DNA of 64,000 nt, taken from contig NC_081335.1 in the NCBI RefSeq assembly GCF_022539665.2, forward strand, positions 8,902,449-8,966,448. The letters run 5' to 3'. The notes under the pieces were generated by a model. The model was not told where the DNA came from. It was given only the letters and a program-made list of their open reading frames with translations, and did not search any database. Positions 1-34,017 of this stretch are shown here, piece after piece (position 1 is the first letter of the stretch; every line of letters starts with the position of its first letter). The position numbers were made by a program, and so were the translations under genes. This DNA comes from Daphnia carinata (taxonomy: Eukaryota; Arthropoda; Branchiopoda; Diplostraca; Daphniidae).

Positions 1-135
1 CAGTGGCAATATCATAACCAATGAGGGTCTCCCGAGGTGTGATTATTGCTAGTTGAAAACTTTAACCAATACCCCGCCACGAAGGAGTGAAATAATCTTC
101 GTCGTCGGCAATTTTTGTTAGCTCCATCAGGAGCA
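1..135 (+). ncRNA. U4: U4 snRNA, 5' end cut by the window
   Basis: U4 pairs with U6 in the U4/U6.U5 tri-snRNP and keeps U6 inactive until spliceosome activation. The copy begins at the conserved GCAGTGGCAATATC block of stem II. The 5' stem-loop and the AATTGAAAAC-like segment 'GTTGAAAACTTT' follow, then ACCCCGCC, a central hairpin (GAAG/CTTC), the Sm site (AATTTTTG) at about 110-117 and a 3' terminal hairpin (AGCTCC/GGAGC). The first nine bases, AGCTTTGCG in other units, lie outside the window. Confidence 0.95.
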
Positions 136-608
136 GATTCCCTTAATGAACGTTAACATAGTTTTCCGTTAGTGATGGGCATTGTCTGCTAGGTTCTAGC
201 ATTTAGCAAGCGATTAGTTACTCGTTCCCATGGATATCGAAGGCCGAAAAACTTGTAGAATTACTGAACGAATCGCACTTTGTTCAACTAAGCGAAAGAG
301 TTCAATACAAAGGTTTAAGAACTAGCAGAAGACTTGTCCTTCGTTTTCTTACCCAATTCAGCTTACCGATTTCGTTTGCCCTAGACTGCGTTTATGTTTC
401 ATCTAACCAGAATTAATTTAGTGCACAATCTAACGAAAAAATGATGTTTACATGAGCTTTACACAGCATCGTCTGTTTTACTCACTGTCTCAAATCTAAC
501 AGAAACCAGCAGTTGCTTTATGGTTGAATTTTTTGGGTTTACCATTGTTACTTTACCAAAGTGGTTTGAAGTTGTGAAATGAATAAATACCAACTACTTT
601 CAGTTGAT
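136..608. other. U4-U5 spacer
   Basis: No gene is recognised. The 473 bases are conserved in every unit. The last 70-80 bp should contain the U5 promoter (PSE-like element), but I could not identify a motif shared with the other snRNA upstream regions by eye. Confidence 0.6.
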
Positions 609-733
609 ATTCACTCTGGTTTCTAATCAATACCCGGATAAATCTTTCGCCTTTTACTAAAGATTTCCGTGGTTAGGAGCGCTGATGAGTCTATATGACT
701 TATTTTTCGATCGCCTGGTCTTTAGACTGGGCA
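609..733 (+). ncRNA. U5: U5 snRNA
   Basis: U5 holds the two exon ends in the catalytic spliceosome. The invariant loop I (GCCTTTTAC) is closed by the stem AAATCTTT/AAAGATTT. It is followed by TTCCGTGG, the conserved 'TGAGTCT' strand, an Sm site (ATTTTTCG) and a perfect 8-bp 3' hairpin (GCCTGGTC/GACTGGGC, with G-U pairs). The 5' end is placed at ATTCACTCTGG by analogy with the family start ATACTCTGG, with a few bases of uncertainty. Confidence 0.93.
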
Positions 734-839
734 CCCCAATAAAACACAAATAAATTCTTGTACGTAACCTAGGGAGTAGCTTGGGTGCAAATTTCGGATG
801 AAAATCGATAAAAGAATATTGAGGTGTCTAATTGCAAAC

Positions 840-871
840 GCGGCCGAGGGCGCGAAGCGCCCGATGGCCGC
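840..871. repeat. GC-rich hairpin A of a conserved pair
   Basis: The nested inverted repeat GCGGCC..GGGCGC-GAA-GCGCCC..GGCCGC forms a near-perfect 32-nt stem-loop in otherwise A/T-rich DNA. An identical copy lies 88 bp downstream at 928-959. The pair recurs, always 88 bp apart, at 5580/5668, 14344/14432, 19081/19169 and (inverted) 31140/31228. Its function is unknown; a terminator, replication or boundary element are all possible. Confidence 0.8.
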
Positions 872-927
872 AAATTCACGTAAATGTAAAGTGAAGCACG
901 GTACTATCCACAATAGCAATTGAAAAC

Positions 928-959
928 GCGGCCGAGGGCGCGAAGCGCCCGATGGCCGC
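928..959. repeat. GC-rich hairpin B of a conserved pair
   Basis: This is a second identical copy of the hairpin at 840-871. The flanks are also duplicated (AATTG[C/A]AAAC on the left, AAATTCA on the right), so the duplicated module is about 47 bp. Confidence 0.8.
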
Positions 960-1050
960 AAATTCAAACATTCTACCATTTCAAATCGAACTCACATTCA
1001 CACACAATTCGCTGTTCCATCCGAAGAAGTGAATTGAAAGCGAAAAACTT

Positions 1051-1089
<39 letters not shown>

Positions 1090-1263
1090 TCAAACGCCAT
1101 TCAATATCTAGGATTCAGATTATTATTCCGCATGAGCTTTGCACATATATAACACTTTTCAAAAGTGCGGGGGGTCACTGCCGTTGTAGTATTTCACATC
1201 TGAAGTTCAAAGAAACACATAGAAATAACAATTTTCCTAATCGAAAAAAAAAAGGAAGGAAAA

Positions 1264-1555
1264 TGAAAGAGGTTTGACTGTTTCGCCGAGGCTAATCCAT
1301 GTCGCACATTCACGGGCGCGATCCTACTACTGCCCGACACGGGAACTTTTGGCTGCTAAGTTTCCCTCCTGGCCCGTTTCGCTCCTCCTTAGCTAACCTG
1401 CACCCATCAAACTCCTCCGATGGGTCCATGTTGATGACGAGCTTAGTGCGGACGCTCGATCAACATGCACGATCACGAAGTAGGGCTCCTCGTCTCAAGT
1501 CATCCACACTATCAAGCCCAGAAGCAGGATTACAGATGCGTGCCACACATCCAGC
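1264..1555 (-). ncRNA. 7SL: SRP RNA (7SL), copy with a 3-nt deletion
   Basis: This is the RNA scaffold of the signal recognition particle. On the minus strand it begins GCTGGATGTGTGGCACG (Alu domain, like metazoan 7SL), then has GTCCGCACTAAG and CATCAACATGG. The SRP54-binding S-domain features follow: GGGAAACTTAGCAG, and AGTAGTAGGATCGCGCCCGTGAAT. Length is 292 nt against about 300 for the family. A T-rich run just past the 3' end fits Pol III termination. It is the only reversed gene in the unit. Relative to the other copies three bases are missing near 1517, in the Alu-domain stem. Confidence 0.95.
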
Positions 1556-31490: not shown

Positions 31491-31962
31491 ATCAACTGAA
31501 AGTAGTTGGTATTTATTCATTTCACAACTTCAAACCACTTGGTAAAGTAACAATGGTAAACCCAAAAAATTCAACCATAAAGCAACTGCTGGTTTCTGTT
31601 AGATTTGAGACAGTGAGTAAAACAGACGATGCTGTGTAAAGCTCATGTAAACATCATTTTTTCGTTAGATTGTGCACTAAATTAATTCTGGTTAGATGAA
31701 ACATAAACGCAGTCTAGGGCAAACGAAATCGGTAAGCTGAATTGGGTAAGAAAACGAAGGACAAGTCTTCTGCTAGTTCTTAAACCTTTGTATTGAACTC
31801 TTTCGCTTAGTTGAACAAAGTGCGATTCGTTCAGTAATTCTACAAGTTTTTCGGCCTTCGATATCCATGGGAACGAGTAACTAATCGCTTGCTAAATGCT
31901 AGAACCTAGCAGACAATGCCCATCACTAACGGAAAACTATGTTAACGTTCATTAAGGGAATC

Positions 31963-32106
31963 TGCTCCTGGAGGAGCTATCAAAAATTGCCGACGACCGA
32001 GAATATTTCACTCAATCGTGGCGGGGTATTGGTTAAAGTTTTCAACTAGCAATAATCACACCTCGGGAAACCCTCATTGGTTATGATATTGCCACTGCGC
32101 AAAGCT
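31963..32106 (-). ncRNA. U4: U4 snRNA, variant with compensated central stem
   Basis: This 144-nt copy has the same central-stem and 3' hairpin changes as the unit 4 copy (18233-18376), so the inverted arm shares recent ancestry with unit 4. Confidence 0.94.
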
Positions 32107-32508
32107 AAATTGTACATGAGAGGGCTCTACTACTTGAACCTTTCTCTCGCCAATTCTGCACGGACGTTGATATCAAGAAAACCAAGAGAGGTGCTGCTTT
32201 TCATTGAAATCTAACAGTTCGCTGCCCTCATTTTTACATTCACATACCTACAAAGATAATAGTTCACTTTACAAATATTCCACCTATGACCACACCACGC
32301 CATGGACTGGTAAAATTCATTTAAAGTGTGCATATTACGGTGCATTTCGCCAAATCAAATGAACGTGCAGGAATTGATTCAATTTGGAGTACAATTCCAC
32401 TGAACCCGTCCCCGTTAACTTGACAATAAAATCGATAAAATTCACATTAATACCGATCGAAACATTTCCAATTACTATGAAATAGTGTTTTACCTTCAAA
32501 CTACTAAT

Positions 32509-32593
32509 TGCCGTGACCAGGATTCGAACCTGGGTTACTACGGAATTATCGTTTCCCCACAACGTAGGGTCCTAACCACTAGACGATCACGGC
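32509..32593 (-). tRNA. tRNA-His (GTG) with a 13-nt intron
   Basis: This 85-nt copy has the same arms and anticodon as the others. One extra T lengthens the intron to 13 nt (GGAAACGATAATT). The sequence after the gene (ATTAGTAGTTTG) also differs from the other units. Confidence 0.92.
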
Positions 32594-32704
32594 GAAATTC
32601 AAATTATTTGGCATCTGTAAAATGCTCCACACGATCAAGTTTATGGTTCATCAACAAATTGTATTGGTGGAAACAAAAAAATTAATAAATTCTCAAAAAA
32701 CCAA

Positions 32705-32824
32705 TGCCAACAGCATCTCGTATTCCCAAGCGGTCACCCATCCAGGTACTAACGAGACCCGACGCTGCTTAGACTTCGGGGAGCCGACGAGACCCGGTGC
32801 GTTCAGCGTGGTATGGCCGTTGGC
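32705..32824 (-). rRNA. 5S: 5S ribosomal RNA
   Basis: This is a complete 120-nt inverted copy, apparently identical to those at 4015 and 17516. Confidence 0.97.
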
Positions 32825-33102
32825 ACGGACGACCGTAAAGGTAACAACGTCTGTTTCGTTGCAAATTGTGTAGTTGCAGTCACCTTAAAAATCCTCTAGC
32901 TTAGCGCTTGGGCCTCGTTTACTACATAAAAAAACACTTCGTAATTGTGCATGATCAACTAAATGTTAGAATTTTCCTTGACGATTTCTATACTTAAAGA
33001 AATAAAACATTATTAAATCAAATGACATACCTTATGACAAATCTGCCTAATGAACAGGATCCCGTGATGTATGGTACACTTGATATTATATGTTCTGTTA
33101 AC

Positions 33103-33266
33103 CAGGGGACAGCGCGAACGCAGCCCCCCACTACCAAAAATTGTACTCCCGAGTTAATCGCATTTGGATTAATCGCAAGGGTCAGCCCATCCGAAGTGCA
33201 ATGGTAGGGCCTCACCCTGGAGGAACCACCTTGGTGATCATGGTTGCCTCTGAGCCAGGTAAGTAT
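33103..33266 (-). ncRNA. U1: U1 snRNA, variant
   Basis: This 164-nt copy has an intact 5' end. Differences include CCAGGGTGAGGCC for CCAGGGCGAGGCC, TTCGGATGGG in stem-loop III and GGGGGGCTGCG before stem-loop IV. Confidence 0.94.
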
Positions 33267-33909
33267 GAGTTTAGTGAATACTTGACGATAACTCATAGTT
33301 TTTTGGTACCCAAACAATACTGACGAAGCACACTAAACCAAAGAGCTTAACAAAGAGCCATTGCGTATAGAATGGCGCAAAGAATCGAAAGATCCCACTG
33401 AGCATAGTCGATTCCATAAAGCTCTTGTTGAAATAATAGGAAATCTACAGCCATTCTTAGGTGAGAAGAAAAATGCTTCCATTTGACGAAAAATTTCTGC
33501 GCCCAACAGCAGACGGCGAACGGCACTGTTTAACCCTCGTTAGACGCTCAACTGATGTAAACGACAGATTCAGTAAGACAAATGTTTCATGACAGATTAC
33601 CGAACAATCAATTCAAATCGAGACAACTTTAACAGTTAGAACTGAAAGGCAGTTTGTCCTTTTTAGATGAACATAACTCGTTGGGCTGCAATTAGTTAAC
33701 CATGTTTGACACTTACTAAAAGAGGTACACCATAACACTACAGCAGCCACATGATTGCAGATGCAATATTGACATACTGGGGATGACAAATATGTATGAG
33801 ATGTAAATATACAGACATTGGTGTTACATCATTAGTTCCAACAAGATGATGCGTGATAAAGATGAGCAGATATACATTTATTTCATTCATAGAGATATCC
33901 CTTTTAAAG

Positions 33910-34015
33910 GGTGAGCCGATCCCGGAGGTACTGCAATACCGGGTCAACCCGTGACAGGATCAATGCAAGCATTGATTTCCCACCGAATTCCAAAAATCAG
34001 TTTAATATTCTGGGA
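33910..34015 (-). pseudogene. U2 snRNA 3' portion, cut at the gap
   Basis: It retains U2 from about nucleotide 86 (CCCAGAATATT) to the 3' end, with a canonical Sm site. Just upstream in the gene sense the sequence is AAT and then N. The break coincides with the nucleotide at which both LINE copies join U2. Confidence 0.85.
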
Positions 34016-34017
34016 TT

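Follow-up and report, generated by a model that had tools for sequence, protein, structure and literature searches.

We analyzed a 64,000-nucleotide window of the Daphnia carinata genome (C5:8902449-8966448, C5 being contig NC_081335.1 of assembly GCF_022539665.2) and found that it carries part of a tandem array in which a single unit combines genes of eight RNA families: U4, U5, signal recognition particle (SRP) RNA, U3, U2, U1, 5S ribosomal RNA and a tRNA. The unit measures 4,737 bp (from the U4 gene at 13496 to that at 18233), and its copies are 97.5-99.2% identical in self-alignment. On the plus strand the genes follow one another in the order just given, with SRP on the opposite strand, and this order recurs. 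The explanation that we favor, with a probability of roughly two in three, is an array of 4.74-kb eight-gene units in which the genes have promoters of their own, the units are homogenized, and the bodies of the small nuclear RNA (snRNA) genes are converted. Judged from its sequence, the linkage appears to be real and old, and is likely functional for most of the genes.

A scan of the window with Rfam gave 39 matches at gathering level, with scores from 54 to 225 bits, all of them within positions 1-34016: SRP 5, U2 6 (3 of them full-length), U1 4, U4 6, U3 5, 5S 3, U5 5 and tRNA 5. The families U1, U2, U4, U5, U3, SRP and 5S each exceed the Rfam gathering score. The original prediction had proposed these eight families, in this order, in one repeated unit, and had offered itself to be judged by such an Infernal/Rfam scan; every family was called. 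When one unit (13000-18500) was scanned permissively at E≤1, no ninth RNA family appeared. The 5S and snRNA genes share one tandemly repeated unit, the arrangement that defines a linked 5S/snRNA multigene array.

The window contains three complete eight-gene sets, two on the plus strand and one inverted, while two further sets are interrupted by a long interspersed nuclear element (LINE) and two more pieces are partial; the five plus-oriented and two inverted units counted in the original prediction are thus an overcount. The first complete set (1-4329, plus strand) comprises U4 (1-133), U5 (611-733), SRP (1262-1555, minus strand), U3 (1862-2084), U2 (2740-2930), U1 (3571-3734), 5S (4015-4134) and tRNA-His (4246-4329); its U4 begins 9 bases before the window, the whole gene being C5:8902440-8902581. 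The other complete plus-strand set (13496-17830), established by Rfam together with the permissive scan, has U4 at 13496-13637, U5 at 14115-14237, SRP at 14763-15059 (minus strand), U3 at 15366-15588, U2 at 16244-16432, U1 at 17072-17235, 5S at 17516-17635 and tRNA-His at 17747-17830. The first interrupted set, with breaks placed by self-alignment, consists of a 5' part (4732-7563, plus strand) with U4 (4732-4873), U5 (5351-5473), SRP (6003-6299, minus strand), U3 (6605-6827) and nt 1-85 of U2 (7479-7563), and a 3' part (12861-13093, plus strand) with 5S from nt 83 and tRNA-His (13010-13093). The second interrupted set retains a 5' part (18233-21061, plus strand) with U4 (18233-18374), U5 (18852-18974), SRP (19496-19792, minus strand), U3 (20099-20321) and the 5' part of U2 (20977-21061).

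Further right, a partial plus-strand piece (26340-27517) holds 5S from nt 83, tRNA-His (26489-26572) and U4 (26975-27116), and ends at an inversion breakpoint. The inverted part of the array (28038-34016, minus strand) includes one complete set (28370-32824), with U1 at 28370-28533, U2 at 29173-29363, U3 at 30019-30241, SRP at 30548-30844 (plus strand), U5 at 31366-31488, U4 at 31965-32106, tRNA-His at 32509-32593 and 5S at 32705-32824. It is followed by a partial inverted piece (33103-34016) with U1 (33103-33266) and a 3' fragment of U2 (33906-34016), which stops at an assembly gap of 100 N (34018-34117) that closes the assembled array. The end at 34017 in the original prediction is the edge of this gap and no biological boundary.

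To find copies elsewhere we searched the genome (106 contigs, 108.1 Mb); only the best first-look candidates were scored (42 of 1411 for U1, 41 of 7600 for U4), so that genome-wide gene counts are lower bounds. Pooled across families, C5 carries 156 Rfam matches, a figure that includes two below cut-off (U2 at 9320088, SRP at 9334138) and excludes a sub-cut-off U1 at 7218811. The main array, at 8.845-8.936 Mb, comprises 14-15 units. A second array at 5.95-6.0 Mb has four or five units at a spacing of ∼10.3 kb with matching gene order, and broken units lie at 9.24-9.57 Mb, including some near 9.3 Mb. Another 100-N gap occurs on C5 near 9.237 Mb, beside a 5S-tRNA-U4 piece, and further units may be absent from the assembly. 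All of the at least 20 U1 genes and at least 30 U4 genes over cut-off are on C5, where single U1/U4 copies also occur (8603899, 4164108, 3932001). Genes over cut-off outside C5 were found for U2 (at least three: C10, and C8 twice), SRP (at least two: C6, C8), U3 (at least two, C6) and U5 (at least three: C10 twice, C4), and tRNA-His matches lie on C4, on C10 and at further C5 sites. U6 gave four matches, three of them over cut-off, on C8, C9 and C10 and none on C5.

The genome-wide scan bears on two suggestions of the original prediction. As to whether the array holds the main loci of each RNA, U1 and U4 are the two families whose genes over cut-off all lie on C5 among the candidates scored; the other six families also occur elsewhere. 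The idea that the unit would keep the dosage of ribosomal, spliceosomal and SRP RNAs linked could hold best for U1 and U4 (at least 20 and 30 genes over cut-off on C5); it loses from the U2, U3, U5, SRP and tRNA-His genes elsewhere, from a 5S array on C10, from the location of U6 outside C5, and from the LINE-carrying units that have neither U1 nor intact U2 and 5S. Dosage coupling is a proposal that the loci elsewhere weaken.

A diverged relic on the same contig speaks to the age of the linkage. Two blocks of the segment C5:7216500-7221500 can be aligned with the unit, one covering the end of U1, 5S and tRNA (81.6% identity), the other the end of U4, U5 and spacer (77.6% identity), and its spacer parts differ from the unit by 16.4% and 14.4% substitutions. 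In Rfam its U1 (34.8 bits) and 5S (31.2 bits) fall below cut-off, and its tRNA (43.8 bits) lies above. A further diverged piece lies at 9.434 Mb and shares ∼85-86% identity with the unit. Because the spacer parts of the relic have diverged too, the linkage is likely older than the present array units.

The promoters and terminators suggest that the genes are organized for separate transcription. Expectation-maximization without position information identified an 18-bp motif resembling the proximal sequence element (PSE). Of 18 snRNA/U3/U6 promoters, 14 have its highest-scoring site between -61 and -57; a location near -60 is that expected for an arthropod PSE. The cluster includes U1, U2, U3 and U5 of the unit (four of its five snRNA/U3 genes) and is common to dispersed genes; outside it are the unit U4 (best site at -67), U2_C8b, U5_C10b and U6_C10. 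The log-likelihood at width 18 is 69.0, compared with 44.7-54.0 in 8 shuffled sets, and at width 14 it is 51.2 against a null maximum of 40.7, a contrast that is somewhat generous given that the null runs used mononucleotide shuffles and fewer starts (15 vs 60) and iterations. Runs of T follow SRP and 5S. These features support the proposal that the unit mixes genes of RNA polymerase (Pol) II type with genes of Pol III type, as the original prediction had it.

The tRNA of the unit reads as tRNA-His(GUG): the GTG anticodon is followed by a 12-nt intron, which lies behind position 37 and ahead of the 3' half of the anticodon stem. When the intron is removed by eye, a cloverleaf with a GUG anticodon results (Rfam tRNA score, 54.1 bits), bearing out the histidine identity first assigned even though ARAGORN calls Pro(ggg) in all five unit copies. 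In 17 of the 37 tRNA matches, which were aligned, the exons are near-constant and the insert varies in sequence and in length (12 to 19 nt), as expected for a spliced intron. Three of these 17 have an altered anticodon, among them the relic and one array unit (8892477). Unit tRNAs at 8901949 and 8862027 have a 17-nt intron, a type that recurs at 9327007, 9434788 and 7219442; at 8901949, the only one compared, both 50-bp flanks are identical to the reference unit despite the different intron. Among dispersed tRNA-His copies, seven of nine have a run of four T within 20 nt, the remaining two being the most similar to that of the unit. Expression of tRNA-His appears the least certain among the eight genes. 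Intron-bearing tRNA-His copies also stand next to sub-cut-off SRP-like fragments (36.8 and 34.1 bits) at C4:7248500-7256000, possibly as short interspersed elements.

The genome contains two families of 5S genes. The unit type is 120 nt long and identical in all 11 full copies aligned, while the C10 type is 119 nt long and forms an array of its own (C10:1-14000) with a unit of ∼465 bp. The two types differ in 17 columns, a one-base insertion included. Four pairs are changed on both sides and are standard in both types; the C10 type leaves pair 26/51 open. Across 16 sequences 92.7% of the cells are paired, and a count of doubly changed pairs this high came up in only 1 of 500 shuffles. Because the differences are compensated and the structure is kept, both families are likely functional. 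Two 5S sequence classes at separate loci are what a dual (maternal/somatic) 5S system looks like at the level of sequence.

We compared gene bodies with their 200-bp flanks among array units. In U1, U2, U4 and U5, 48 of 621 body columns are variable as opposed to 17 of 1613 flank columns (∼7-fold; p = 6e-15, nominal). SRP, U3 and 5S show the reverse, with 2 of 640 body and 20 of 1221 flank columns variable (p = 0.011, nominal), and no substitution occurs in SRP bodies (5 array copies compared) or in 5S bodies (9 array copies). For all seven families pooled, the counts are 50 of 1261 and 37 of 2834. The excess is seen in U4 (16/142 body vs 3/401 flank columns), U1 (17/165 vs 5/406) and U5 (7/123 vs 2/401). 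Copies used with 200-bp flanks, out of those listed, were U4 11/15, U5 6/14, SRP 5/9, U3 9/9, U2 9/9, U1 11/11 and 5S 9/9; the lists cover 9 of 14 array copies for SRP, 9 of 14 for U3 and 9 of 16 for U2, where the omitted copies are truncated apart from 8874392, which differs in its 5' part. An earlier BLAST-mapped count had given nine variable columns in 5S, which we attribute to 5S fragments; the nine full array copies are invariant. When only minor alleles seen at least twice are counted, 27 of 620 body columns (U4 12, U5 2, U2 5, U1 8) stand against 5 of 720 columns in 90-bp flanks (1, 0, 2 and 2).

These body variants are in part shared and in part structured. Twenty-four of 52 minor alleles also occur in copies with unrelated flanks (donor copies: U1 2; U2 2, with C8:4334628 left out; U4 1; U5 3), where ∼10.7 would be expected for random letters. 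Both sides have changed with pairing kept at U1 pairs 26/39, 51/88 and 99/109 and at U4 pairs 23/49, 27/46, 93/109, 131/142 and 132/141; slid structures give 0-1 such pairs. In the 20 U1 copies aligned, neither the 5' end nor the ATTGCACT loop, which we take to be the loop of stem-loop 2 (SL2), varies. The alignments held 20 of 21 U1 matches (the degenerate 7218811 being omitted), 15 of 30 for U4 and 16 of 47 for 5S. The simplest reading of this pattern is short-tract conversion, which would be limited to the bodies because these alone are similar between loci; SRP and U3 would be too divergent to convert, the unit copies being 78-83% identical to the dispersed copies compared. In the picture that we favor, each gene probably has a promoter of Pol II or Pol III type that drives its transcription, unequal exchange probably keeps whole units alike, and short gene conversion probably moves sequence between U1, U2, U4 and U5 bodies and copies elsewhere. 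The array would then hold the principal stock of U1 and U4 copies and supplement the supply of the other six RNAs.

Several observations weigh against this explanation. The top Rfam scores for U2, SRP, U3 and U5 go to dispersed genes. The unit U4 lies outside the promoter cluster, and at width 8 the motif is weak (25.3 vs a null maximum of 22.5) with scattered sites. No run of four T, as a close Pol III terminator, lies in the 70 nt downstream of unit tRNA-His in the two array copies examined. The array units are non-independent samples, which renders the Fisher values nominal, and U2 alone lacks a body excess over its upstream flank (8/191 vs 7/200). For 28 of the 52 minor alleles, the unrelated-flank copies used offer no counterpart. 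Open pairs occur at U1 62/78 (7 of 18 sequences), U4 36/40 (7 of 11) and U4 92/110 (6 of 11). Of the five double changes in U4, four come from one sequence each, and the change at U1 99/109 falls outside the 8.9-Mb array. For U1, three pairs changed on both sides with pairing kept turn up in 37 of 500 shuffles, and the observed number of pair types in 369 of 500. The U1 at 8879964 (and that at 9321110) has an altered base in the Sm-site region. Finally, polishing could have mixed paralogues.

This last point belongs to a broader doubt, namely that unrelated loci were joined in the assembly, or that short-read polishing wrote paralogue bases into the gene bodies. The 100-N gap at the array end and the inversion fit such an origin, and a gene-limited pattern could arise from mis-mapped short reads; but many units show this gene order, as do a second array, whose insertion differs, and a relic with diverged spacer, and the variants include compensated pairs and a five-base change in tRNA intron length. 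A chimera is unlikely because the unit recurs in the second array, in broken copies and in the relic, all on one contig, and we hold artifact of either kind to be very improbable. Nearly as improbable is a dead amplification, in which most of the genes would be copies in decay that spread as part of a satellite. It would account for the truncated U2 and 5S genes, the LINE insertions, the fragments at 9.24-9.57 Mb, the tRNA with no close terminator and the altered anticodon in one array tRNA. It accords poorly with a PSE-like motif at one distance, with a U1 5' end and SL2 loop unchanged in 20 copies, with SRP and 5S bodies free of substitution, and with compensated variants.

The body variation might instead be kept by selection for different snRNA isoforms rather than imported, with only the spacers homogenized. 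That variants often preserve pairing and spare the functional core agrees with this, but the sharing of alleles with unrelated-flank copies above random expectation, and the matching body-limited swap of the tRNA intron, make it unlikely. Oocyte and somatic RNA sets exist in other animals, and the array could likewise be an egg/embryo-type RNA set with its own 5S class, the dispersed genes and the C10 5S array serving the body. This reading, which is compatible with the favored one, draws on the 17-column distance and four compensated pairs between the 5S types, the identity of the 11 full unit-type copies, the 78-83% identity of unit SRP and U3 to the dispersed copies compared, and a precedent: an extract of PMC4291461 treats developmental snRNA isoform switching in flies and mice, along with snRNA concerted evolution. 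It would need a somatic set of U1 and U4, but no gene of either family over cut-off was found outside C5 among the scored candidates; single C5 copies exist. We regard it as possible but tentative. A composite of these ideas, a little more doubtful in our view, is an RNA supergene of eight families and two polymerases, the main U1/U4 reservoir, in which the spacers would evolve as one array, snRNA and tRNA bodies would circulate tract by tract with single genes on other chromosomes, and 5S, SRP and U3 would form a separate stage-specific class.

The LINE that interrupts two sets is a non-LTR retrotransposon (7564-12860, plus strand; self-alignment and domain matches) with an open reading frame at 8061-9110, an apurinic/apyrimidinic-type (APE) endonuclease at 9107-10006 (PF03372), a reverse transcriptase at 10020-12449, a zf-RVT domain and a poly(A) end. 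A second copy (21062-26339, plus strand; self-alignment) has both junctions identical, 5' at U2 nt 85 and 3', at the poly(A), at 5S nt 83. The sets that carry it (starting at 4732 and 18233) are without the U2 3' half, U1 and the 5' part of 5S, ∼1.27 kb being gone. Because the two copies share both junctions, one insertion event was probably copied along with the unit. In the second array, the one unit fetched whole has an insertion in 5S near nt 49-52, and a second 5S-tRNA piece ends in poly(A). Among the best 120 of 443 protein matches, the nearest named LINE proteins are from D. sinensis (four), D. magna (two) and Stenomitos sp. (one). Target-specific LINEs of this kind are described in extracts of two papers: Keno, with an apurinic/apyrimidinic-type endonuclease, inserts in U2 and shares one U2 site with Utopia (PMC4640811), and Mutsu targets 5S (PMC3706591). 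The element described here resembles Keno in lying in U2/5S genes and in its APE-type endonuclease. It is unlike Keno and Utopia in that 5S sequence from nt 83, rather than their shared U2 site, adjoins its 3' end, and unlike Keno and Mutsu in joining U2 nt 85 to 5S nt 83 with the loss between them.

The rest of the window holds other repeats. A 70-bp satellite forms three blocks, at 34118-34484 (directly beside the array gap), 44824-50926 and 60071-61901. Retrotransposon frames, partly of BEL/Pao type (DUF1759, DUF5641, Peptidase_A17, RVT_1, integrase zinc-binding), occupy 37206-43310 and 51503-57282, and an ankyrin-repeat reading frame lies near the satellite at 62660-63823 (minus strand). 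Searches for the U2 5' end in viral contigs and for the U1 pattern in bacterial and archaeal contigs gave no match. The assembly itself contains two cox1 types, two copies on C92 and one diverged copy on C106, which would fit a sample of mixed origin, the presence of another species or a copy in the nucleus. The mitochondrial sequence reads with TGA as Trp, as several genetic codes would allow, and its gene order, read by eye, agrees with a Daphnia-like source, as do the named LINE protein matches from D. sinensis and D. magna.

If the array consists, as we favor, of homogenized eight-gene units with converted snRNA bodies, it has several consequences. The unit makes it testable whether RNAs for splicing, ribosomes and export change in copy number in concert. 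If genes were under purifying selection and spacers drifted freely, the spacers should be variable and the snRNA bodies uniform; the pattern seen is the opposite, and the array would lend itself to measurements of conversion between loci at the scale of gene bodies. The compensated differences between the two 5S families raise the question of stage-specific expression.

Linked RNA gene arrays are known, and we compared the present one with those described in extracts of the following papers. Closest by taxon are crustacean units joining 5S to another multigene family, the 5S-U1 and 5S-histone repeats of the isopod Asellus aquaticus and the 5S-histone repeat of Artemia (PMC3215682); their partner is U1 or histone, and the extract makes no mention of U2, U3, U4, U5, SRP or tRNA. 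Several Sm-class snRNA genes are linked, as here, in fish (U2-U5 and U1-U2-U5) and in Drosophila (U1-U2, U2-U5 and U4-U5), and in one fish U2 and U5 each have their own PSE; the extract (PMC3464664) describes no repeat uniting U4, U3, SRP, 5S and tRNA. In other cases 5S is joined as here, but to one partner family each: U2 in Crassostrea, U1 in razor shells, tRNA in mussels and Yarrowia (PMC3464664, PMC3215682). In Euglena U3 is linked to U5 or to tRNA genes, and spliced leader (SL) RNA-5S repeats occur; it was stated in 2009 that U3 is elsewhere directly linked to no small-RNA gene but tRNA (PMC2784804). Euglena differs in being a protist with convergent gene pairs, its U3-U5 linkage not being presented as tandem arrays in that extract. 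The tRNA arrays of Entamoeba, some of them containing 5S, are likewise tandem units of several RNA genes, but, as described there, consist of tRNA and 5S genes only, with short-tandem-repeat spacers (PMC2652664). No eight-family RNA unit was described in the open-access literature searched by titles and abstract beginnings, among the matches listed, and within that scope the novelty first proposed for the unit stands. The arrays compared, as far as these extracts describe them, join two or three families, so that an eight-family unit would extend the reach of such linkage: the principle is familiar, and the breadth of eight families is what is new.

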